DNA from: Levilactobacillus cerevisiae
GTDB taxonomy: Bacteria > Bacillota > Bacilli > Lactobacillales > Lactobacillaceae
Direction of reading: 5' to 3'
DNA: 37,817 nt
Assembly (NCBI RefSeq): GCF_003946245.1
Contig: NZ_RHNN01000033.1
Location: 1-37,817, forward strand
Positions 72 through 37,044 of the stretch are shown piece after piece. The stretch's first letter is position 1; every line of letters begins with the position of its first letter. The position numbers were made by a program, and so were the translations under genes. The notes under the pieces are model-generated. The model saw nothing but the letters and a program-made list of their open reading frames with translations. It did not search any database and was not told where the DNA came from.

Positions 72-102
72 AGAACCACTTTTTTACGACAGCATTCCGG
101 CC

Positions 103-422
103 AAAACTTGACTCACTCACGCCTACATAGACTGTAGCTAGTTATCGTAGACAAAAGTTGCCAGTCCCGCAATAATCATCACTGTCAGGTTGAAAAACAA
201 TCAAAACCGGAGGAGGCCAGAGATGCAGGCAGCTGTGTCGACGGTGTTTGCTGAGTGAAATTCTCAGCTTACAGCGTGGGACGCGTTTGGAGACTGACGA
301 GTTTTGTCAGGCTCTAAACCGAGCCGGAGGACCGCTTCTCAGGCCGCAGGCGCTCCCCACAGACGCCGGAATCTCTGGCAGCCGCAGGTGACTGGCCTCG
401 ACTGATTTTGCACTTTCAACCT
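103..422 (+). repeat. Dispersed element, copy 1 (5'-truncated)
   Basis: Copy 1 of a three-copy element (others near 9166-9671 and, inverted, 23295-23893). It shares the block GACTCACTCACGCCTACATA near 110-130, the SD-plus-start block at 208-225, the long conserved stretch 270-390 and the terminal ACTTTCAACCT (412-422), which matches both ends of copy 3. The upstream half present in copies 2 and 3 is missing. The small frame at 223-405 keeps the same register but has in-frame TGA codons at 256-258 and 295-297, so this copy cannot make the full peptide by standard decoding. It lies directly downstream of usp, in antisense orientation to it. Boundaries are by eye. Confidence 0.8.
223..405 (+). 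pseudogene. Broken copy of the element's small reading frame (two in-frame TGA)
   Basis: ATG at 223 follows GGAGGAGG at a good distance. The frame reads the same peptide as the other copies (TAWDAFGD, then KPSRRTASQAAGAPH, then RNLWQPQV) and ends at the TGA at 403-405, 60 codons as in copy 3. It is interrupted by TGA at 256-258 and again at 295-297, the latter where copy 2 has TGG (Trp) and copy 3 TGT (Cys). It is either a decayed gene copy or a sign that the element is not protein-coding. Confidence 0.5.
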
Positions 423-4532: not shown

Positions 4533-5465
4533 CTACAAGAAGTGAATGCTGGCAACGCCTAAGAACATGGTGATTAGTCCCAGCACTCGTGTCAGAGCTA
4601 CGCGATTGACCAGGGATTCAAACAGGCCAAAGTGATCTATCAGTGCACTGAAGAAGAGCTGACCAAACAAGGCAATCACCACGACCTGCCCCGTCCCAAT
4701 CTGCGGAACCAGCCAGGCGCTGCCAAAGACGTACAGTGCGCCCAGGAAGCCACCCAGCCAGATCCACCAGAAATGTCCGCCAGCGTGAATGGCTGGTCGT
4801 AACGCCGTCAGTGGTAAGCGTAACACCGCTAACAACACAAAGAGTAACACCGCGCCCACGGTAAACGACACCATTGCCGCGTGAACGGAGGAGCCTAAGA
4901 CGACGCCCAGATGCCCATTGATCGCTGTCTGACTGGCCATCAGGAAACCAGAACCAATCCCTAAGAGTTGCAAGAACAAGTTGTGACTCTGTTTCCCATT
5001 TCTCTGAGCTTGGGTACTGCTGACCATTCCCGTCGTGACAACCATCCCCACTGTTACCAGCAGAATGCCGAACGCTTTGATCCAGGTTAACCCCGACTGC
5101 GGGGAACTAAACAAACCAAACTGATCAATCAGAACGCCCATAATAATCTGCCCAAACAACGGTAAAACCGCCGTCTGAATGCTACCTAGCCGGGGAAACA
5201 AGAGTAAATTAACCGTCATCCCCAAGACGCCGAGGAGCCCGCCCAACCAAATCCACCACGGGTTGTCAGCGAAGGTGCTGGCCGCAATCCAGGGCGTCAC
5301 GCCCGAAGCAACCGTCAGGCCGATTAGAAAGAGCGCCCCAATCGTAAATGACACGGTCGAGGCCAAATAAGGTGAGCCCACATATTGCCGTAACTTTGAG
5401 TTGACGGCCGTCTGCATTGCCAGGCCACTACCCATTAAAACTGGAATTAACGCGAGTAAAATCAT
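4533..5465 (-). CDS. DMT-superfamily transporter, YdcZ/DUF606 type (two repeats)
   Basis: About 310 residues with ten predicted membrane helices made of two DUF606 repeats. Each repeat carries the same signature: MQTAVNSKLRQYVGSPYLAS then WIWLGGLLGVLGM in the first half, and SQTAINGHLGVVLGSSVHAA then WIWLGGFLGALYVFGSAW in the second. Substrates of this family are mostly unknown. The longest frame starts at a TTG at 5483, but GGGAGTG lies about 7 nt from the ATG at 5465, which is preferred. A MerR-type promoter (5508-5538) sits just upstream and the merR gene lies upstream on the same strand, so the regulator very likely controls this transporter. Confidence 0.88.
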   Translation of the reverse strand: MILLALIPVLMGSGLAMQTAVNSKLRQYVGSPYLASTVSFTIGALFLIGLTVASGVTPWIAASTFADNPWWIWLGGLLGVLGMTVNLLLFPRLGSIQTAVLPLFGQIIMGVLIDQFGLFSSPQSGLTWIKAFGILLVTVGMVVTTGMVSSTQAQRNGKQSHNLFLQLLGIGSGFLMASQTAINGHLGVVLGSSVHAAMVSFTVGAVLLFVLLAVLRLPLTALRPAIHAGGHFWWIWLGGFLGALYVFGSAWLVPQIGTGQVVVIALFGQLFFSALIDHFGLFESLVNRVALTRVLGLITMFLGVASIHFL

Positions 5466-5507
5466 CCAATCACTCCCAAACAATTTTTAAATAAGTTGAT
5501 GGGAGTT

Positions 5508-5538
5508 ATCTTACAAGCTGAAGTTAACTATAGGTCAA
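5508..5538 (-). promoter_or_regulatory. MerR-family operator/promoter of the transporter
   Basis: On the minus strand: -35 TTGACC (5533-5538), a 19-bp spacer (5514-5532) and -10 TAAGAT (5508-5513). The overlong 19-bp spacer is the hallmark of MerR-activated promoters. A dyad is centred in it: CTATAGTT against AACTTCAG (6 of 8 positions symmetric around GTTAAC). It lies about 43 nt upstream of the transporter start and just downstream of merR. Confidence 0.8.
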
Positions 5539-5572
5539 GGCATCAGTTCGATTTTTTACGGCATCTGCCAGA

Positions 5573-6061
5573 TTAATCCTGTTCTTTATTTCCAAGCGCT
5601 TCCGCCGAGTGCCCGGCCTGCCGCAACTGCTGATATTCCCGGTAGGTCAGCGGATCGACTTGCTTGGAATCTGGCAACAGGTGAATGCTTTCGGTTCCCG
5701 CCGCCGCTGCCGTTTTGTAATACCATTTTTTAAACCGCAGATAGGCCAAAGAATCCTCCAGCTGCGAAATCTGCTGTTCCAATACTTTCTCATGTTGATC
5801 CAGGAAATCATAGCGTTGGTCCAGGGAATCATCCCCGTCCATCCGCCAGGAAACGAAGTAAGCAATTTCCTTAATCGGGACCCCTGCCCGTTTCAAATCC
5901 AAGATCATCCGCATCAATTGGACGTTATCGTCCGTAAACCGCCGCCGGCCACCACTATCTCGTTTCACAAACGGTAACAGGCCAGCGTGGTCGTAGTACC
6001 GAATAGCTTCAACGGAGAGATCCATCATCTTGGCGACCTCACCAATCCCATAAGTTTTCAT
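5573..6061 (-). CDS. MerR-family transcriptional regulator
   Basis: 162 residues. An N-terminal winged helix (YGIGEVAKMMDLSVEAIRYY, then DHAGLLPFVKRDSGGRRRFT) is followed by the second HTH half (MILDLKRAGVPIKEIAYFVS) and a coiled-coil dimerisation helix (residues about 85-115). The C-terminal tail has no cysteine cluster like those of metal-sensing MerR proteins, so a metal effector is unlikely; the effector is unknown. SD AAGGAG lies before the ATG at 6061. The only MerR-type operator seen nearby is at the downstream transporter promoter, so the likely role is activation of that gene. Confidence 0.9.
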   Translation of the reverse strand: MKTYGIGEVAKMMDLSVEAIRYYDHAGLLPFVKRDSGGRRRFTDDNVQLMRMILDLKRAGVPIKEIAYFVSWRMDGDDSLDQRYDFLDQHEKVLEQQISQLEDSLAYLRFKKWYYKTAAAAGTESIHLLPDSKQVDPLTYREYQQLRQAGHSAEALGNKEQD

Positions 6062-9165: not shown

Positions 9166-9671
9166 TGCTTACAAAAGATACATTCAGCAAACCCGCCGGC
9201 TTACCGTTCACCAAATTTAGGCTGGAACGCTGTGGGCAGGACGGCCCAAGCCAAAGAGCGGTCTTGGACCTCGCTTTGAACCGCCAAGCCCGCGTTTCAA
9301 AGTCGCCATTTTCCAAGGAAGACCACATGGAAAATCCCACGGCTGAGCCTAAATCTGGCTCACTCACGCCTACATAGACTTTGACCAATTATGGTGGACA
9401 AACGTTTCCAGCCCAGCGATGGTCACATCAACGTCATGTTGAAAAACCTATCTTAACCGAAGGAGGACAGAGATGGGGGTAGCTGTGACGACGGTGTTAG
9501 CTGGGAACCAGCTTACAGCGTGGGACGCGTTTGGAGACTGGCGAATTTTGACAGGCTTCAAACCGAGCCGGAGGACCGCTTCTCAGGCCGCAGGCGGTCC
9601 CCACAGCAGGCGGAATCTCTGGCAGCCGCAGGTGGCGACTCCCAACTAATTTTGTGTCCCCCTGTTAGCTG
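9166..9671 (+). repeat. Dispersed element, copy 2 (near full length)
   Basis: Copy 2 of the three-copy element. From CCGCCGGCTTACCGTTC (about 9194) it matches copy 3 almost to its end, through GTTTCAAAGTCGCCATTTTC, CATGGAAAATCCCACGGCTG, the SD/start block at 9460-9475, the conserved 3' stretch 9510-9635 and TTGTTAGCTGG-like sequence (about 9662-9671). The terminal AGGTTGAAAGT/ACTTTCAACCT repeats of copy 3 were not found, so both ends are probably eroded. Segments 9229-9283 and 9554-9607 are imperfectly reverse-complementary, so a transcript could fold on itself. The element carries the small frame 9473-9649 and ends about 80 nt before the flavodoxin-like gene's promoter. Confidence 0.8.
9473..9649 (+). 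CDS. Small reading frame of the dispersed element (58 aa), coding status uncertain
   Basis: ATG at 9473 follows GAAGGAGGACAGAG, an excellent SD at correct spacing. The predicted peptide starts MGVAVTTVLAGNQLTAWDAF, continues GDWRILTGFKPSRRTASQAA and ends near RRNLWQPQVATPN. It is basic, Trp-containing and has no signal peptide or recognised domain. The same frame exists in copy 3 (60 codons, open) and copy 1 (60 codons, two TGA stops). The 6-nt length difference from the other copies preserves frame. Against coding: copies differ at all three codon positions, not mainly the third. Confidence 0.4.
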   Translation: MGVAVTTVLAGNQLTAWDAFGDWRILTGFKPSRRTASQAAGGPHSRRNLWQPQVATPN

Positions 9672-20923: not shown

Positions 20924-22009
20924 TCACCGAACACCACCCTTGCTGACTACACCAGCGTGAACTAAGCCATCTGCGACAAGGCATTGGGCAATCTGCACGG
21001 TGTTCCACGCGGCACCCTTCAACAGGTTATCGGAGACGACCCAGAGATTGAATGCGCCAGGATTTTCCAAATCTGGTCGGACCCGACCAACGTAGGTCTC
21101 GCGAGTCCCAGTCGCATTCACCGGTTGGGGATAGACCTGATGGCTGGGATCATCCTGTAAAACAACCCCCGGCGCTGTTGTAAGTGATTGGCGTACTTGC
21201 GCAACCGTGGCGTCCGGATTCCCCGTATCAATCCAGATGGACTCACCGTGGCTAATTGGTACCGGCACCCGAACACAGGTCGCCGTGACCTTTATCTCGC
21301 TGGCATCCATGTCTCCCAGCATTATTTTCTTGGTTTCGTGAATCATCTTCCACTCTTCATGGGAATACAGATTGTCCTCCAGCACGTCAATTTGTGGTAG
21401 GAGGTTGAAGGCCAACGGGTAGTGTTTCTGCTCCCCCTTGGTGGGGAAGATAGCGGCTTGCATGGGCTTCCCGTCCAAAAAGTCTTGTGCTTCCCGATAC
21501 AATTCCTGTAACGCAGACTGCCCCGCCCCGGAGGCCGCCTGATACGTCGACACGATAATCTGGCGTAAACCGACTGCCTGGCGAATGGGTGCCAACGCCA
21601 CCATCATCTGGATGGTCGAACAGTTGGGGTTAGCAATGATGCCGTGATGCTGAGCCAGCGCTGATTCATTCACCTCTGGGACGACTAACGGAACGTCCGG
21701 GTTCATCCGAAACGCGCTGGTGTTGTCCACACAAACGGCCCCACGCTTGACGGCTTCCGGCAATAGCCGTTTTGACACGTCCCCGCCGGCCGACGCCAAG
21801 ACGAGATCGACGCCTGCAAACGATTCTGGTCGCGCCACTTCAACCGTCATAGCCTGACCCTTAAAGGTTAAAATTTTCCCAGCTGATCGTTCAGACGCGA
21901 GTAACTTAACTGCCGACACGGGAATCGTCGACTGTTCTAACTGCTGAATCAAGCGGGTCCCCACGGCCCCAGTGGCACCTAAGATGGCAACGACAAAACC
22001 TGTCCCCAT
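20924..22009 (-). CDS. asd: Aspartate-semialdehyde dehydrogenase
   Basis: About 361 residues. It reduces aspartyl phosphate to aspartate semialdehyde with NADPH, the branch point for lysine/DAP, threonine and methionine. The Rossmann motif [11 protein letters not shown] is at the N terminus, [15 protein letters not shown] in the middle, the catalytic Cys in [11 protein letters not shown], and the substrate-binding region near [18 protein letters not shown] at 22015 is possible, but AAGGAA lies 9 nt from the ATG at 22009. It is the last gene of the L-box operon, about 20 nt after patA. Confidence 0.96.
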
Positions 22010-22028
22010 AAACACTCATTCCTTCCTG

Positions 22029-23231
22029 TTAATTCAACACGTTCTCCGTCATTTTAGCCGTAAAACTTGCTAACCGCTTCATGGCCTCCTGAATATCCGT
22101 CATCGCTGAAGCATATGAAATTCGCACGTAGCCTTCACCACCAGCGCCAAATGCACTGCCGGGGGTCACGCCCACCTTGGCCTCTTCAGCCAGTTTCGTC
22201 GCAAATTCTACGGAAGTGAGCCCAAAGCTAGCTGGAATCTTCGCAAACGCATAGAAGGCGCCCGCCGGCAACTGGGTCTCATAACCCAGTTCATTGAGCT
22301 TTGGCACGATGTAGTCGCGCCGTTGTTGGTAAATGTGCCGCATCTCCTCTGCGTCGTCTAAACCGTTGGTCAACGCCTCTAAGGCCGCGTACTGGGCAGG
22401 ATTGGAGGGACTGGTGATCGCGAAACCATGAATTTTGCTGGCATTCGTCACAAATGCTTTTGGACCGGCGAAGTAACCAATCCGGTAACCCGTCATGGCG
22501 TGAGACTTAGATAAGCCATTAATCAAAATCGTTTGTTGCGGTAATAACTCAGCCATCGACGTATGTTTCTGGCCATAAGTTAATTCCGCGTAAATTTCAT
22601 CGGTTAAGACGTACATTGCGTGTTGTTTAACCACGTCCGCCACTTCCTGAAGCTGCGCGCGACTATAGGTAACTCCCGTCGGATTGCCGGGGAAATTCAG
22701 GACCACCGCTTTCACGTTGGCTGCGCCTTCTCGGTCCAAGACTTCCTGTAGATGCCGGCCAGTCAGCCGAAAGTTGTCGGCCGACGTATCCACTTGAATC
22801 GGAATTCCCCCAAAGATTTCAATCACCGGCCAATACAGGGCAAAGGTCGGCGTGGCGACGATGATTTTGTCACCGGGATTAATGATGCTGGCCAGCGTCG
22901 AGAAGATTGCCTCGGTCGCCCCCACGGTCACCACAATCTCAGTGGCGGCATCGTAGTCTACCTGAAAACGTTTTTTCAAATAATGACTGATTGCCTCACG
23001 TAGTTCCACGATTCCCCGCTGGTCAGAGTAATGGGATTTGTTAGCCCGAATACTGCGGACGGCAGCCTCCTTAACGTGCTCTGGCACGTTGAAATCAGGT
23101 TCGCCCAGGGTTAATTTGATGATTCCCGGAATCTGGTCAAATTGCTTTGCGAAGAAGCGGATTTGCGAGGGCGCGATTGGTGCTAGCGCTTGATTGACGA
23201 TTGGTTTTAACTTGGGATCTAATTGTGGCAA
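22029..23231 (-). CDS. patA: PLP-dependent aminotransferase, N-acetyl-LL-DAP aminotransferase (PatA-like)
   Basis: A class I/II aminotransferase of 400 residues. Motifs: LTLGEPDFNVPEHV near the N terminus, NFPGNPTG, DEIYAELTYG and the PLP-lysine segment LINGLSKSHAMTGYRIG. In this operon it should transaminate N-acetyl-2-amino-6-oxopimelate with glutamate, the step between DapH and the deacetylase. The ATG at 23261 would extend the protein through its own SD; the TTG at 23231 follows GGAGAGG by 7 nt and gives the usual N terminus. It is separated from dapB by the repeat element, whereas all other operon genes are tightly packed. Confidence 0.88.
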   Translation of the reverse strand: MPQLDPKLKPIVNQALAPIAPSQIRFFAKQFDQIPGIIKLTLGEPDFNVPEHVKEAAVRSIRANKSHYSDQRGIVELREAISHYLKKRFQVDYDAATEIVVTVGATEAIFSTLASIINPGDKIIVATPTFALYWPVIEIFGGIPIQVDTSADNFRLTGRHLQEVLDREGAANVKAVVLNFPGNPTGVTYSRAQLQEVADVVKQHAMYVLTDEIYAELTYGQKHTSMAELLPQQTILINGLSKSHAMTGYRIGYFAGPKAFVTNASKIHGFAITSPSNPAQYAALEALTNGLDDAEEMRHIYQQRRDYIVPKLNELGYETQLPAGAFYAFAKIPASFGLTSVEFATKLAEEAKVGVTPGSAFGAGGEGYVRISYASAMTDIQEAMKRLASFTAKMTENVLN

Positions 23232-23294
23232 ATTGGTCACCTCTCCTAACTTTCCTGTCATTTATATTTTTTAAACTATTCACTAAAAAACTAA

Positions 23295-23893
23295 AGGTTG
23301 AAAGTCCCAATGAACCTAAAGCGGCCCAGCTAACAAGGATTTAATCCACAAAATTAGTGGTTAATTGTCACCTGCGGCTGCCAGAGATTCCGGCTGCTAT
23401 GGGGAGCGCCTGCGGTCTGAGGGACGGTCCTCCGGCTCGGTTTGAAGCCTGTCCAGAACCGACAGTCTCCAAACGCGTCCCACGGCGTAACCTGAGAAAA
23501 TCGCTCAGCTAACGCCGTCGACACAGCTGCCTCCACCTCTGTCCTCCTCCGGTTATGGTTGTTCTTCAATATAACATTGCCGAGACAATCGCTGGACTGG
23601 CAACGTGTGTCCACCGTAATTGGACACAGTCTAAGTAGGCGTGAGTGAGCCAAATTTAGGCTCAGCCGTGGGATTTTCCATGTGTTCTTCTTGGAAAATG
23701 GCGACTTTGAAACGCGGTCCGTGCGGTTCAAAGCGAGCTGGCAGACCGCCTCACAGGCTGCCGGCGTCCTACCCACAGCGTTCCAGCCTAAATTTGGCGA
23801 ACGGTAAGCCGGCAGGTTTAGACCGAGTTGCCAATATCCAGCGTTATATTCCTACTGTGTAGCGGGTTACGCCAACGTTTTTACTTTCAACCT
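23295..23893 (-). repeat. Dispersed element, copy 3, bounded by 11-bp inverted repeats, inside the lysine operon
   Basis: The most complete copy, about 599 bp, inverted relative to the other two. Its left end is AGGTTGAAAGT (23295-23305) and its right end ACTTTCAACCT (23883-23893), perfect 11-bp inverted repeats. The right end lies 5 nt after the dapB stop; the left end is about 60 nt upstream of the patA start. No transposase is encoded. Read on the minus strand it has the same order as copy 2: AACCTGCCGGCTTACCGTTC, the GTTTCAAAGTCGCCATTTTC block, the SD/start block and the conserved 3' half. No clear target-site duplication was found. It resembles a MITE-like insertion that the operon tolerates. 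Confidence 0.82.
23354..23536 (-). CDS. Small reading frame of the dispersed element (60 aa), coding status uncertain
   Basis: GTG at 23536 follows GGAGGAGGACAGAG. The 60-codon frame gives VEAAVSTALAERFSQVTPWD, then AFGDCRFWTGFKPSRRTVPQ and RNLWQPQVTINH. It is the intact counterpart of the frames at 9473-9649 and 223-405. The frame is also open upstream to 23776, but that region is out of register with copy 2 because of a 1-bp difference, so only the SD-led part is listed. No domain, signal peptide or membrane helix is seen. If the operon transcript crosses the element, this frame would be on it. Confidence 0.4.
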   Translation of the reverse strand: MEAAVSTALAERFSQVTPWDAFGDCRFWTGFKPSRRTVPQTAGAPHSSRNLWQPQVTINH

Positions 23894-23898
23894 CGTAG

Positions 23899-24675
23899 CT
23901 ACAAAATATTTTCCAATCCAATCACCAAGTCCTGCCGGTTCATGGCCGCATCGATGCCTAGCCGGACGCCCTTCATGAAGGACGCCCGATCCGTAGTACT
24001 CTGCTTGATGGTTAAGGTTTCTCCAGAGCCACCGAAGATGACTTCCTCGTCGGCAATGAATCCGGGCAAGCGGACCGCATGAATCTTGATGCCGTGATAG
24101 TCCCCACCGCGCGCACCCAAGGGGTCCTGTTCCTGCGGGTTGCGGGGTTCATCATGCCCCTGCTGCTGATAAATCAGTTTGGCCGTGTTCAAGGCCGTTC
24201 CCGAGGGGGCGTCCAGCTTGTCTTCGTGGTGATACTCAATGATTTCCGCATCATCCAGATAGGCCGCGGCTTCCCGCGCAAATTTCATCATCAAGACGGC
24301 CGTTACCCCAAAGTTGGCGGCAATCACCCCGCCCAAGTGCCGGGCATTTGCCGCGGCTTGCAAGGCCACCTGTTGGTCTTCCGGTAGCCCGCTGGTGCCA
24401 ATCACCGGTCGCATCCCCCGCTCAATTGCAAATTTAGCATTCGCATAAACACCGGTCGGCACGCTGAAATCGAGCCAGATGTCGGCCATAACTGTGATTT
24501 GGGTGAAGGCATTGTACACGCCCACGGACTCAGCCAAGCCGTAATCACTCGGCTGTAGGCTGGTCACATGGGGATTGTAGACGCCCACTAACTCTAAGTC
24601 GGGATCCGCCGTAATCATCGCCACTGCCTTTTGACCCATCGCTCCGGTAAATCCGGCAACCAACACTGTAGTCAT
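23899..24675 (-). CDS. dapB: 4-hydroxy-tetrahydrodipicolinate reductase
   Basis: 258 residues. It reduces the DapA product to tetrahydrodipicolinate with NAD(P)H. The N-terminal dinucleotide motif is [21 protein letters not shown] and the catalytic signature [18 protein letters not shown] (His and Lys) are intact. The ATG overlaps the dapA stop (ATGA), indicating translational coupling. The repeat element begins 5 nt after its stop codon. Confidence 0.96.
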
Positions 24676-25559
24676 GCCTGGGCCTCCTTTGTGCCTAACG
24701 CCCGGTACAGCGTGGCCTTCTCTTCGCTATTTAATGAAAGAATTGGTAACCGGCAGTCGCCAACTTCATAGCCCTGATCGTTTAACACGGCCTTGACCGG
24801 TGAAGGGGACGGATACATGAACAGTGCCGCCATCTTCGGCGTTAATTGCCGCTGAAGCGCGCCAGCTGCCAGGTAGTCCCCACCTTCTAGGTCATCTAAC
24901 ATTTCGCGAATCTGTGACCCGTAGATGTGTGACGCCACGGAGATGACCCCGTTGCCGCCGACCGCAATCGCGAAGAGTGCCTGGGCGTCTTCCCCACTGT
25001 AAACGAGGAAATCGGCCGGCGTGTGTTCGACGATAAATTCGAAGTCAGCCATCGTGTTGCACTGCTTGACGCCAGCAATGTTGGGATTCTGGGCCAGCGT
25101 CACCACGGTTTCTTTGGCCATTAAGACGCCGGTTCGCCCGGGAATGTTGTAAATCATCACGGGTAGTGGCGAGGCCGAAGCAACCGTTTCGAAATGGGCA
25201 ATCATCCCTCTTTGATTGGGCTTGTTGTAGTAAGGAACCACCACCAACGCCATGTCGATGCCGGGAATCTTCCCTAATTTTTGCACGAAGTCGACGGTCC
25301 CCTGGGTGTCGTTACTGCCGGCTCCCGCGATAATGGGCACGCGACCGCCAACCATGACCGCGAAACGCGTATAGAGGTCTAATTTTTCCGTCTCACTTAA
25401 GGTAGGCGTCTCGCCAGTCGTCCCCCCAATTACGAACCCCTTGGTGCCCGTCGCCAGTAGATGTGTGGTTAATTTTTCCAACGCATCATAGTTAATCGCG
25501 CGACCATCGGCGGTAAACGGCGTGATGATGGCGGTAAATAAATCTGCATGTTCAAACAT
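24672..25559 (-). CDS. dapA: 4-hydroxy-tetrahydrodipicolinate synthase
   Basis: 295 residues, a TIM-barrel class I aldolase that condenses pyruvate with aspartate semialdehyde. Visible motifs: [31 protein letters not shown] (catalytic Tyr), YNIPGRTG and the Schiff-base Lys in [11 protein letters not shown]. Length is as expected. AAGGAG lies about 9 nt before the ATG. The gene starts 15 nt after the deacetylase gene and overlaps dapB by 4 nt. Confidence 0.96.
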
Positions 25560-25574: not shown

Positions 25575-26720
25575 TTAGTGCTGCATGCGATCGGTCAAAA
25601 ATCCCTGAATTGCGGTAATTCCCTGCATAATCGCTGCTTCGTGTGGTTGAAAATTGGCGGCGTGCAGCGCGCCTGGACTGTCCACGCCCAACCAAAACAT
25701 GGTCCCCGGTATCTGGTGAAGCAAATACCCAAAGTCCTCGCCGGTCATAGCTGGTCGGGTCTCCTGAAAGGTCACGCCCGGCGTCCGTTGCATATATTGG
25801 ATAAAGTTAGCCGTAAGTCGCGGATTGTTTTCAACGGGAAAATAGCCCCCCTGATTAAAGGTCACGTCAATCTTGGCGTTGTAGGTCTGGGCAACTCCGG
25901 CTGCAACCTCACTGACCCGCTGCCGCAAGAATAAAATCATCTCTTCGGTCAGGCCACGAATGGTGCCTTCGAGGCGTGCCTCCCCAGCAATCACGTTACG
26001 AATCGTCCCGGCCGTCAGCTTGCCAAACGTAATCACGCCACAGGCAATCGGATCGATATTCCGGGAAATAATCGTTTGCACCTGGGTGATAAAACTAGCG
26101 GCGATAATCACGGCATCGTTGGCCTTGTGGGGAAAGGCTGCGTGGCCACTCGTGCCGTGAATGGTGACGTTCACCTCGCTGGTCCCCGCAAACAGAGTCC
26201 CCAAGCAACACCCAATGGTACCGGTCGCGAGGTCCGAATTGTCGTGGAGACCGTAAAATTCATCGATTTGCCAGTCGCCCGTAAACAGGCCTAAATCATA
26301 GGCTTGTTTGCCGCCGCTCTCGCTTTCCTCGGCAGGTTGAAAGAAAAAGATCAGGTTGTCTTGTGGTTGGTGCTCGGCGAAGTAGCTCAGGAGGCCTAAC
26401 GCCACGGTCATGTGGATGTCGTGACCACAGGCGTGCATGATGCCCGGATGAGTCGAGTGAAACGGTAGCTGCTGGCTCTCCGTGACTGGTAAAGCGTCGA
26501 TGTCCGCCCGATAGCCAATCGTCCGTTGGGGCTGGCTACCGGCCACCTTGACCAGCAACGCAGTCGGCAACGCTTCAGGTTCCTTGCAGGTCAACCAGGT
26601 TTGGGGATAGTGACTGATAACTTCCTTTAAATAGGCGTGGGTCGCCGTCTCATGTAGCGCCAGCTCCGGAATTTGGTGGAGGTGACGGCGAACGTCAATT
26701 AACGCGGATTCGCTCAGCAT
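25575..26720 (-). CDS. dapL: N-acetyl-diaminopimelate deacetylase (M20 amidohydrolase)
   Basis: 381 residues, M20D-type metallo-amidohydrolase like B. subtilis YkuR/DapL. It removes acetate from N-acetyl-LL-DAP. Metal motifs: YRADIDALPV, HACGHDIHM, FFQPAEESESGG, YGLHDNSDL, and the late MTGEDFGYLL. The symbol dapL is also used elsewhere for an unrelated LL-DAP aminotransferase; here it means the deacetylase. It lies 3 nt after dapH and 15 nt before dapA. Context in the acetyl branch makes this assignment much firmer than for a lone M20 protein. Confidence 0.92.
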   Translation of the reverse strand: MLSESALIDVRRHLHQIPELALHETATHAYLKEVISHYPQTWLTCKEPEALPTALLVKVAGSQPQRTIGYRADIDALPVTESQQLPFHSTHPGIMHACGHDIHMTVALGLLSYFAEHQPQDNLIFFFQPAEESESGGKQAYDLGLFTGDWQIDEFYGLHDNSDLATGTIGCCLGTLFAGTSEVNVTIHGTSGHAAFPHKANDAVIIAASFITQVQTIISRNIDPIACGVITFGKLTAGTIRNVIAGEARLEGTIRGLTEEMILFLRQRVSEVAAGVAQTYNAKIDVTFNQGGYFPVENNPRLTANFIQYMQRTPGVTFQETRPAMTGEDFGYLLHQIPGTMFWLGVDSPGALHAANFQPHEAAIMQGITAIQGFLTDRMQH

Positions 26721-26723
26721 GGC

Positions 26724-27428
26724 TTACAACTCCCTTAACGTTTTTTCAATGTGGGTCTTGTCAGTCGTCTGTTGATCTTTCACTTTAATCACGTGCGCCG
26801 GAACGCCGGCAACGACGGTATTGGCCGCTACATCCTTGGTAACGACCGCCCCAGCACCAACGACGGCATTGTCACCAACCTGAACGCCTTCCAAAACGAC
26901 GGCATTGGCCCCGACCGTGACGTTGTTGCCAATCCGGACCGGTGTGGCCGAGGCGGGTTCCACCACACCCGCCAGCACGGCGTTGGCGCCAATGTGGGCA
27001 TTCTGGCCGACGGTTGCCCGCCCACCTAAGACGGCCCCCATGTCAATCATGGTACCGGCGCCAATCTCAGCGCCGATATTAATGACGGCGCCCATCATAA
27101 CGACGGCGTGATCGCCAATCGTGACCTGATCCCGAATGATGGCCCCCGGTTCGATCCGCGCGTTGAGCTGTTGGGTGGCTAATAGCGGAACCGCTGAATT
27201 ACGCGCGGTCACTTCCAGCTCGTAGGCACTGGCTGGCAGGTCGGCAAGCAGTGGTGCCACGTCCTGGTAATCCCCAATCAAAATGGTGAATCCGGTTGTG
27301 GCGAAACATTTAACGTCTGCCGGAACCTTTTCAGTTGCCATCTGTCCTTGCACGTAAGCTTTCACGGGCGTTACCTTTTCAGCGGTGCCAATGTAGCTGA
27401 TAATTTCTGTTGCGGTCATTTTTTTCAT
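26724..27428 (-). CDS. dapH: Tetrahydrodipicolinate N-acetyltransferase
   Basis: 234 residues. An N-terminal alpha/beta cap is followed by a left-handed parallel beta-helix of hexapeptide repeats (from about residue 90: [20 protein letters not shown], then [20 protein letters not shown] and beyond). It transfers acetyl from acetyl-CoA to tetrahydrodipicolinate, committing flux to the acetyl branch. DapH rather than DapD (succinyl) fits the size and the neighbouring deacetylase. AGGAGG precedes the ATG. It is the second gene of the operon, about 45 nt after lysA. Confidence 0.95.
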
Positions 27429-27474: not shown

Positions 27475-28776
27475 TTACTGGTAGGGTTCATCCAAGCGAA
27501 TTAAGTCAGCATACGTTTCTCGTCGTACCACTAGTTTCGCCTGGCCCTGTTCAACGAAGACGACGGCTGGTCGCGGATTGCGGTTGTAGTTTGAGGCCAT
27601 GGAATAGCCGTAAGCCCCGGTATCCAGCATCGCAATCAGGTCACCTGGTTCCGTCCGTGGCAGTGCGAGTTGATCGACTAAGATGTCGCCAGACTCACAG
27701 TACTTCCCGGCCAGGTGCACCGTTTCTTGCTGGGGCGCGTTCAACTTGTTAGCCACCACCGCTTCATATTTGGCCTGGTACAACGCCGGGCGAATGTTGT
27801 CACCCATGCCGCCGTCAACACTCAGATATGAGGCCAGGTTGGGGATGTCCTTCCGTGAACCCACGGTGTACAAATTATAGCCAGCCGGCCCGACAATCGC
27901 GCGCCCGGGTTCGATCCAAATTTCCGGGAGTGGCAGGTGGCGTTCCGTGGTTGCTGTTTTTAAAGTGGCGGCAATGTGTTGAATGAATTCCGCCGGGGCA
28001 ATCGCCGTGTCTTCCTGGGTGTAGGTGATGCCGAACCCGCCTCCTAGATTTAAAATCGGCAGGGTCACGTTAAACTGTTCCTGCCAGTCGGCGGCAATGC
28101 TGACCAGCTTTTTCACTAGGAGATCAAACCCGGCGACACCGAAGATTTGCGAGCCGATGTGGGCATGAATCCCGATTAATTGCATCTGTGGGATGGCCAA
28201 GACCTCTTGTAAGGCGCGGGTGGCTTGACCCGAGTCAACGTCGAAGCCAAACTTACTGTCGACCTGGCCTGTTTGGGTGTACCGGTGCGTGTGGGCGGAA
28301 ATCCCCGGCGTTAAGCGCAACATAACCTTGGTGGTTGCGCTGCGTTCCTGGAGAATCCGTTTCAGCAAGTCGACCTCGTGGAAATTATCCAAGATGATTA
28401 CACCAACGTGATTTTCGACCGCCATTTCCAGTTCCGCACGGGTCTTATTGTTCCCGTGGAAGCTGAGGTGGTCGGCCGGGAACCCGGCGTGTAACGCGGT
28501 ATACAACTCCCCGCCAGAGACCACGTCGGCGTGCAGTCCTTCCGCCGCAATCACCTGATACATGGCAACGGTGGCAAAGGCCTTGCTGGCATAACTGATT
28601 TGATAGTGGAGTCCAGTCTGGGCAAAGCTCTGTTGAAACGCGTGAATCTGTTGCCGAATCTGGCCGACATCGTACACGACTAGTGGTGTGCCGTACGTTT
28701 GCGCCAACTCAGTCGCATCCACCTTGCCAATGAGTAAGTGCCCCTGTTCATTTGCCGTCAATTCACTACTGATCAT
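27475..28776 (-). CDS. lysA: Diaminopimelate decarboxylase
   Basis: 433 residues, a fold-type III PLP enzyme converting meso-DAP to L-lysine. The PLP lysine lies in SYASKAFATVAMY; other marks are HAHIGSQIFG, LNLGGGFGITY, EPGRAIVGPAGY, CESGDILV and GAYGYSMASNYN. It is the first gene after the lysine riboswitch, so lysine represses the last step and the whole operon behind it. SD AAGGGTGG precedes the ATG at 28776. Confidence 0.96.
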   Translation of the reverse strand: MISSELTANEQGHLLIGKVDATELAQTYGTPLVVYDVGQIRQQIHAFQQSFAQTGLHYQISYASKAFATVAMYQVIAAEGLHADVVSGGELYTALHAGFPADHLSFHGNNKTRAELEMAVENHVGVIILDNFHEVDLLKRILQERSATTKVMLRLTPGISAHTHRYTQTGQVDSKFGFDVDSGQATRALQEVLAIPQMQLIGIHAHIGSQIFGVAGFDLLVKKLVSIAADWQEQFNVTLPILNLGGGFGITYTQEDTAIAPAEFIQHIAATLKTATTERHLPLPEIWIEPGRAIVGPAGYNLYTVGSRKDIPNLASYLSVDGGMGDNIRPALYQAKYEAVVANKLNAPQQETVHLAGKYCESGDILVDQLALPRTEPGDLIAMLDTGAYGYSMASNYNRNPRPAVVFVEQGQAKLVVRRETYADLIRLDEPYQ

Positions 28777-28803: not shown

Positions 28804-29045
28804 AAAAAAGGGATCCCTTTGCTTACAAACAAAGAGATCCCAGAAAGTTGCATTCTGCATCGTATTCGTCGTAAGCGCCCCGTAGCAGACTTTTTTGCTA
28901 CGACAGTCCGTGATTTATTGAATCAACGTCCCAGCTAATTAGCCGCTGAATCGACTAACGCTTCGGCGACCGTCCCTTTTCGCCGGGTCCAAGTCCATTC
29001 AGGGACTCACCGGCGTACTCATGTTGGTCGCAACCTCTTATTTGA
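28804..29045 (-). promoter_or_regulatory. Lysine riboswitch (L-box) with terminator
   Basis: Read on the minus strand from about 29045: AAGAGGTTGCGACC, ATGAGTA, GGCGAAAAGGGACGG, TCGCCGAAG and GGACTGTC, in the order and spacing of the lysine riboswitch core. GCAACTTTCT near the 3' side can close P1 with AGAGGTTGC. It ends in a strong terminator, GGGATCTCTTTG pairing with CAAAGGGATCCC, followed by TTTTTT (28804-28841). Lysine binding should cause termination before lysA. Confidence 0.93.
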
Positions 29046-29055
29046 TGTTGCTATT

Positions 29056-36136: not shown

Positions 36137-36143
36137 TAACTGA

Positions 36144-36217
36144 CGGTCCGTACGAGACTCGAACTCGTGATCTCCTCCGTGACAGGGAGGCGTCCTAACC
36201 AACTAGACCAACGAACC
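36144..36217 (-). tRNA. tRNA-Asp (GTC), copy A
   Basis: Full cloverleaf with acceptor GGTTCGT/ACGGACC and anticodon loop CTGTCAC. The gene plus the next tRNA lies in a 161-bp segment repeated exactly at 36792-36952. CCA is not encoded. Confidence 0.96.
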
Positions 36218-36222
36218 AACAA

Positions 36223-36296
<74 letters not shown>

Positions 36297-36316
36297 ATAA
36301 TATTAAATTGTGACAA

Positions 36317-36736: not shown

Positions 36737-36792
36737 ATTTAACCATTTAGCAAATCTTATGGATACTGCATTCGGGCGACCAAACACAGTAA

Positions 36793-36866
36793 CGGTCCGT
36801 ACGAGACTCGAACTCGTGATCTCCTCCGTGACAGGGAGGCGTCCTAACCAACTAGACCAACGAACC
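36793..36866 (-). tRNA. tRNA-Asp (GTC), copy B
   Basis: Identical to 36144-36217; anticodon loop CTGTCAC. Confidence 0.96.
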
Positions 36867-36871
36867 AACAA

Positions 36872-36945
<74 letters not shown>

Positions 36946-36954
36946 ATAATATAA

Positions 36955-37044
36955 AGGAGGATGAGAGATTCGAACTCTCGCGTGATTTTACTCACCTGAC
37001 GGTTTTCAAGACCGTTCCCTTCAGCCAGACTTGGGTAATCCTCC
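36955..37044 (-). tRNA. tRNA-Ser (TGA)
   Basis: 90 nt with a long variable arm; anticodon loop CTTGAAA; acceptor GGAGGAT/ATCCTCC. The discriminator reads T, not the usual Ser G. Confidence 0.93.

Follow-up and report, generated by a model that had tools for sequence, protein, structure and literature searches.

What separates dapB from patA in the lysine operon of Levilactobacillus cerevisiae, and how did it come to be there? The operon lies in the stretch of DNA that we analysed (the window; 37,817 nt, contig NZ_RHNN01000033.1 of assembly GCF_003946245.1), and ORF and model searches place its genes on the minus strand in the order lysA (27475-28776), dapD (26724-27428), an amidohydrolase gene (25575-26720), dapA (24672-25559), dapB (23899..24675; TIGR00036, 202.7 bits against a cut-off of 122), a PLP-dependent aminotransferase gene, patA (22029..23261; best model PRK07309 with 502.6 bits, below its cut-off of 576), and asd (20924-22015), with a lysine riboswitch (Rfam RF00168, 86.4 bits; 28865-29047, minus strand) ahead of lysA. 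The map of these seven minus-strand ORFs confirmed what a sequence-only reading of the window had noted: the gap between dapB and patA is the sole large one between lysA and asd. Given this gene order, the operon transcript would have to cross the element that fills the gap to reach patA and asd. The start of patA may be a TTG at 23229-23231, ten codons inside the ATG ORF: a purine-rich stretch precedes it, and the alignments of several relatives begin near this point.

The sequence-only reading placed in this gap a non-autonomous, MITE-like element with perfect 11-bp inverted repeats at 23295-23305 and 23883-23893. These repeats are present as described; the bounds it drew (23295..23893) fall short by 4-5 bp at each end, and the inverted terminal repeats and flanking duplication define an unstranded element of 608 bp (23291..23898), the 5 nt that had been taken as a spacer after the dapB stop codon being the element's own end. 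The left terminal repeat, CTAAAGGTTGAAAGT (23291..23305, plus strand), is identical at 15/15 bases to both ends of an IS4-family element described below; the right one, ACTTTCAACCTCGTAG (23883..23898, minus strand), is perfect over its inner 11 bases and diverged in its outer bases. The element is flanked by an unstranded duplication, CTAAAAAA on the left (23283..23290) and CTACAAAA on the right (23899..23906), equal at 7/8 bases. The right copy opens with the dapB stop codon (23899-23901), so that the 3' end of dapB, stop codon included, was duplicated on insertion and the dapB frame is intact. The absence of a transposase was upheld: a search of NCBIfam at E 1e-10 gave no model for the longest internal ORF (23354-23776, 140 aa), and the interior consists of folded modules. 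A scan for promoters and terminators around the element found nothing above chance (0 promoter-like and 1 terminator-like, vs. 0.9 and 1.0 in shuffles).

If the element is an insertion, some relatives might be expected to retain the empty site, a comparison already proposed in the sequence-only reading. Twelve genomes of the genus, our own included, have a close patA, and the dapB-patA junction was read in the 11 others: in G025, G002, G017 and G019 it is empty, with <30 nt between the dapB stop and the aligned patA start; in G021, G013, G005 and G014 the gap between the dapB and patA protein alignments is 46, 203, 185 and 144 nt, with no detected module. The remaining three (G020, G012 and G026; loci L043, L044 and L045) carry at this same junction a diverged element of the same architecture, in which the terminal repeats described here are absent by eye, and whose module A scores 105-107 bits by HMM in G020 and G012 vs. 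168 for the window copy. Thus 8 of the 11 junctions lack a detected module and 3 hold a diverged relative, rather than all relatives sharing one sequence. It is possible that the element of these three genomes is a separate insertion by another subfamily, and possible also that the end of dapB is an insertion hotspot. The junction element at L045 has an extra module.

Iterated profiles resolve the element into two homologous modules of ~185 bp each, mutually inverted and each folding into a closing stem with hairpins: module A (23367..23556, plus strand) and module B (23631..23815, minus strand), both matched by HMM. A covariance model built from 34 A modules that are <80% mutually identical (R1) scores 158.8 bits over 23393-23549 in module A and 53.2 bits over 23643-23781 in module B. 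The arrangement is nearly invariant: among 175 modules in 86 loci there are 58 cases of neighbours within 500 bp, of which 56 point inward, one outward and one in tandem, and every other-genus locus with two detected modules (L224, L227, L212 and L215, of eight searched) has them inward. The 11-mer, exact or with one mismatch, occurs in the window 4 times vs. 0.83 expected by shuffling. Two related copies had been noted in the window, at 103-422 and 9166-9671. Both are real, and the first ends in the same 11 bp; they are two among many, as blastn with the element finds 52 matching stretches in its own genome. The first (100..422, minus strand) keeps module A (R1 210-366, 151.9 bits) and one end repeat (11-mer 412-422) and has lost module B, which R1 does not match there; the other (9189..9656, minus strand; 84% by blastn) keeps both modules (R1 9227-9365, 53.6 bits, and 9460-9610, 145.5 bits) and has no 11-mer end at up to one mismatch. 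The copy at 100-422 adjoins a hairpin followed by T residues, behind an ORF at 473-988.

The family extends well beyond this genome. By blastn the element matches 24/34 congeners and 0/23 genomes from other genera; plasmids and phages gave no blastn match, in searches that may leave out records very near our own genome. An exact 22-base motif of the family occurs in at least 86 stretches of named genomes and was not found in viral contigs; among 80 listed matches, 79 belong to Levilactobacillus or to Lactobacillus sp. HBUAS51381 and the other to a Rhodobacter bin (contig L144), where R1 sees no module, and which we reject as a family member and attribute to chance. R1 finds modules in 34/35 Levilactobacillus genomes, with at least 85 modules in 19 of them and 27 to 84 in most others. 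At E 1e-4, G021, G031 and G016 have none, one and nine modules vs. at least 27 in each of the other 32, which makes them natural module-poor comparisons. In wider samples R1 matches 60/251 genomes of the family, representing 10/40 genera, and 3/148 genomes of the order, our own included; matches in the family sample beyond Levilactobacillus reach 126.7 bits and can be full length.

Abundance and placement were examined in an uninterrupted 400-kb section of the L. brevis CD0817 chromosome, which contains 58 modules in 39 clusters, or 2.9% of the DNA; extrapolation gives ~434 modules per L. brevis chromosome. None of the 39 clusters overlaps a called gene by >80 bp, a result that excludes longer genes only, since genes were called by a longest-ORF rule after module-covering ORFs shorter than ~900 bp had been dropped. 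There are 12 clusters in convergent gaps (63 gaps in all), 23 in co-directional gaps (170) and 4 in divergent gaps (66) (convergent vs. divergent, p 0.03; divergent vs. rest, p 0.06; these values treat clusters as independent gaps, and a few share one).

Are the terminal repeats and duplications of the window copy typical of the family? At a threshold of at least 13/18 bases, a terminal repeat is recognised outward of inward module pairs on 35/155 left and 33/158 right sides, compared with 9 left and 5 right for the reversed string and 0 left and 2 right for the wrong orientation; among 158 inward pairs, 17 have both ends recognisable, 34 have one and 107 have neither. When a 15-base end is required to match at 11 bases at least, 22 pairs have both ends, and in 11/22, from several species, the total length is 585-610 bp. 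Direct repeats flank many of these: at a fixed position, 8 bp are alike at 6 or more bases in 6/22 and at 7 or more in 5/22 (mismatched controls 1.3% and 0%), and a repeat of 7-9 bp, one mismatch and a one-base shift being allowed, is present in 14/21 end pairs, the window copy among them (9 exact), vs. 0/420 mismatched pairs, lengths and shift having been chosen after looking and one duplicate record left out of the 22. As the loci were fetched for resemblance to the element, these fractions hold for the sample and not for all copies. Target duplications of this kind fit the chemistry of DDE transposases, not that of Y1 transposases.

The matching ends lead to a candidate partner. The exact 15-mer end is present in 21/35 genomes of the genus and its reversed control in 0/35. 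In G019, an insertion sequence of 1559 bp (L288 611-2169) has two exact facing ends (15/15) with CTGATTAA on both sides, and its single ORF of 450 aa encodes an IS4-family transposase (NF049925, 470 bits against a cut-off of 250; PF13546, 74.9 bits); a transposase with matching terminal repeats, as the sequence-only reading had suggested seeking, thus exists within the genus. Nine full insertion sequences, this one included, encode transposases that are 66-100% identical. In six of them the two ends are exact, and in the others they match at 13-15/15; a duplication lies where it would be expected in only four (8 bp in three, 7 bp in one). Nine further relatives, ~50% identical, end in CTGAAACTTGAAAGC or near it. 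Long palindromes lie inside both ends of L288 611-2169 and could act as terminators against read-through.

Within the genus, 10/35 genomes match the transposase at E 1e-30, 7 of these with at least 68% identity, and it is full length only in 2/35, namely G009, where the match contains a TGA, and G019. Our own genome retains a 79% identical remnant without the first 163 residues (G000:C56:44438-45379; L189, L304), with an exact end by its 3' part. Four exact 11-mers lie outside the known copies in this genome: one at the end of that remnant, one on C67 near a module fragment (25.5 bits), and two, on C26 and C41, where R1 finds nothing. Ends within 80 bases of contig starts, eight listed in G026 and five in G023, would be expected wherever an assembly is broken by a multicopy insertion sequence; among two read per genome, those in G026 have the inner sequence of one L288 end and those in G023 have a different one. 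On plasmids, 54 records include a relative at E 1e-50, of which the closest is 69.5% identical and carries a single exact end.

By each defining criterion examined, namely inverted ends, target duplications, lack of a transposase, an autonomous element with the same ends, and presence or absence at orthologous sites, the element would classify as a MITE, in agreement with the non-autonomous family first proposed. Homology between the element and the insertion sequence ends, by eye, at the terminal repeats. From the matching ends and duplications we infer, with good though not full confidence, that an IS4-family transposase recognising the 15-bp ends moved the element.

An alternative is that the modules were amplified by some other route, and that no more than part of them subsequently gained IS4-type ends or came to lie within such ends. 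The majority of inward pairs (107/158) have no recognisable ends, and terminal repeats were not found in any of the four other-genus copies checked (4/4); the association with the IS4-type insertion sequence may thus be younger than the modules themselves. Modules without the transposase and the transposase without modules both occur: in the family sample a match of at least 66% identity is found in 10 genomes (G000, G009, G194, G215, G288, G310, G331, G332, G350 and G351), only 4 of which have modules (G000, G009, G332 and G351), and many module-rich genomes have no such transposase gene. Since the two are not found in parallel, a different route of spread is conceivable. It is common, however, for MITEs to persist after their partners are lost, and old ends can be expected to decay; the direct repeats of MITEs are likewise described as waning over time in a passage of PMC10969869. 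Moreover, the copies with both ends cluster at 585-610 bp in 11/22 pairs, as would be expected for one transposing unit. We consider the alternative the strongest of those weighed, though unlikely.

What, then, does the element carry? In an alignment made by sequence alone (A1), 25/29 consensus pairs of the module fold show double changes that preserve pairing; the covariation score is 0.519 vs. 0.184 in shuffles, 0/500 of which score as high, and falls to at most 0.088 when partners are slid by 1-3 columns. An alignment of hits to the model (A2; 150/175), which leans to the structure by construction and serves as a second look only, gives 258 double changes vs. 28 steps to G-T and 62 to A-C. 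In two close genomes with flanks 96-97% identical (L149, ~5423-5600, and L091, 522-530), one lacks module B between two CCACTA repeats; we had considered this ~180-bp indel between 6-bp repeats as a target duplication and rejected it, as other copies suggest a deletion.

Compensatory changes of this kind could be a mutational by-product, if template switching during replication perfects hairpins and no selection acts. That process predicts many double changes with few intermediates, as in A2, and little strand preference, as observed (see below). Two features argue against it: a C.T mismatch within the longest covarying helix is invariant in 34/34 diverse copies, although repair by template switching should erase a mismatch, and the pairs of the closing stem lie >100 nt apart, yet 4/5 of them have double changes. 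We therefore regard template switching as a rather improbable source of the covariation.

If the folds are selected, are they selected as RNA or as DNA? Where one RNA strand is selected, G-U changes should be far commoner than A-C changes on that strand, and the lysine riboswitches of the genus used as a control for our tree-based count (31 in all, one from the window and the other 30 fetched) behave accordingly, with G-U:A-C of 45:5 on the true strand and 8:31 on the wrong one. Over all predicted pairs, the corresponding G-T:A-C counts on the given and complementary strands are 23:42 and 53:30 for the modules of A1, 33:85 and 80:40 for 80 full A modules, and 44:55 and 56:43 for 56 full B modules, that is, a preference for the favoured strand of ~2:1 in module A and 1.3:1 in module B. 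Because this strand preference is weak compared with that of the riboswitches, the folds are probably constrained as DNA, in one or both strands. Folded as single-stranded DNA, module B of the window is more stable than expected (z -4.4; -4.42), and module A is no better than shuffles (z -0.97, 34/200).

That the modules act as RNA, either as a structured non-coding RNA or as a cis-acting mRNA element copied around the genome, is consistent with the strong fold of the transcript (for 23295-23893 folded as RNA, z is -6.0 on one strand and -6.2 on the other), with the strong covariation, with the intergenic placement in the 400 kb of L. brevis, where the gene calls exclude longer genes only, and with the 80:40 preference for G-U that module A shows on its complementary strand. 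The modules could have a weak RNA role or a mixed one, and the preference in module A could also come from an RNA or one-strand role. Against the 45:5 of the riboswitches, however, the modules reach 80:40 and 56:43 at best; the two modules are inverted, so a single transcript reads one of them backwards; and the window has no match in Rfam 15 at gathering scores except tRNAs and the lysine riboswitch. We judge a primary role as RNA improbable. A REP- or BIME-like system moved on single-stranded hairpins by a Y1 (RAYT-like) transposase would share with REPINs, as described in parts of PMC3116915, inverted folded repeats paired between genes, but we reject a Y1-type autonomous partner as hardly credible, given that the Y1 domain PF01797, found in 23/35 genomes of the genus, has a distribution that does not track that of the modules (absent from the module-rich G002, G012, G030 and G032 and present in G021, in which modules were not found), and given that the target duplications point to DDE rather than Y1 chemistry.

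We thus favour, with good confidence, the reading that the 608-bp insert is a MITE, probably placed by an IS4-family transposase with the same ends, and composed of two inward-facing homologous modules whose folds are likely kept as DNA. In the sequence of events that we propose, the IS4-family transposase would have inserted the element between dapB and patA by way of the shared terminal repeats; the insertion would have duplicated the last bases of dapB, including the stop codon; and patA and asd would from then on lie behind a spacer predicted to fold strongly if transcribed, so that an effect of the element on the expression of patA-asd is possible. The inverted folded modules may form cruciforms or single-strand hairpins and thereby bring the two ends together in synapsis; alternatively, the folds may be favourable to the transposase or to replication by the host, or favour tolerance by the host. 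More tentatively, these elements might represent a class of bacterial transposon passengers, spread across Lactobacillaceae, in which the fold is what is carried. Their two inverted multibranched DNA modules would be under selection on both strands, in cruciform or single-stranded form, and would have risen to hundreds of copies in a genome through borrowed ends to which an IS4-family transposase is recruited.

Compared to known systems, the element resembles IS-mobilised MITEs such as QMITE2 of Coxiella and Nezha of cyanobacteria in having ends in common with an insertion sequence, target duplications, noncoding content, intergenic placement and many copies. MITEs are usually AT-rich and short, although this is not required, and the trait is not seen here: the window copy has 608 bp and a GC content of 53% vs. 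51% for the window, with 62% in module A and 56% in module B. Passages of PMC10969869 and PMC3049150 likewise describe MITEs as AT-rich. The family is unusual among MITEs in its length of ~600 bp, in a cargo of two inverted homologous multibranched modules whose stems covary and favour neither strand by much, and in its presence in 10/40 sampled genera of Lactobacillaceae. With IS4-family insertion sequences it shares the ends and the size of the target duplication; unlike them it has no transposase and, by eye, no homology to them inside the ends.

Other interspersed repeats are alike in part. BOX elements of Streptococcus pneumoniae are, in the portion of PMC3049150 concerned with them, modular and predicted to have conserved structure, whereas the modules here are homologous, nearly always inward and have an IS4-type partner; BOX is set apart by its description, not by sequence. 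REPINs and BIMEs mobilised by RAYT are, in parts of PMC3116915, inverted folded pairs with compensatory changes and many per genome; their REP units are given as 20-40 bp in the abstract of PMC3733652, in contrast to the multibranched modules of ~185 bp, target duplications, DDE-family partner and lack of a Y1 link found here. The bcr1 repeat of the Bacillus cereus group is described in a section of PMC2267715 as an interspersed repeat of ~150-170 bp with conserved structure and confined to one group; it belongs to other bacteria, and the likeness drawn here is taken from its description.

Our search of the open-licence literature found no description of this element family, which does not prove that there is none; elements that make up 2.9% of the DNA in 400 kb of L. 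brevis would thus be both undescribed in that literature and, for the window copies, unmatched in Rfam. The family offers a natural test of whether the secondary structure of bacterial DNA, rather than of RNA, can be under long-term selection, as its many copies in both orientations make strand-resolved statistics possible, and the copy in the window sits in the middle of an operon for precursors of lysine and peptidoglycan. Two minor observations concern the surroundings: our own genome has a second lysine riboswitch, on contig C4; and within a cluster of 18 tRNA genes in the window, a 164-bp segment that holds two tRNA genes occurs twice (36143-36306 and 36792-36955), the copies being 99% identical.
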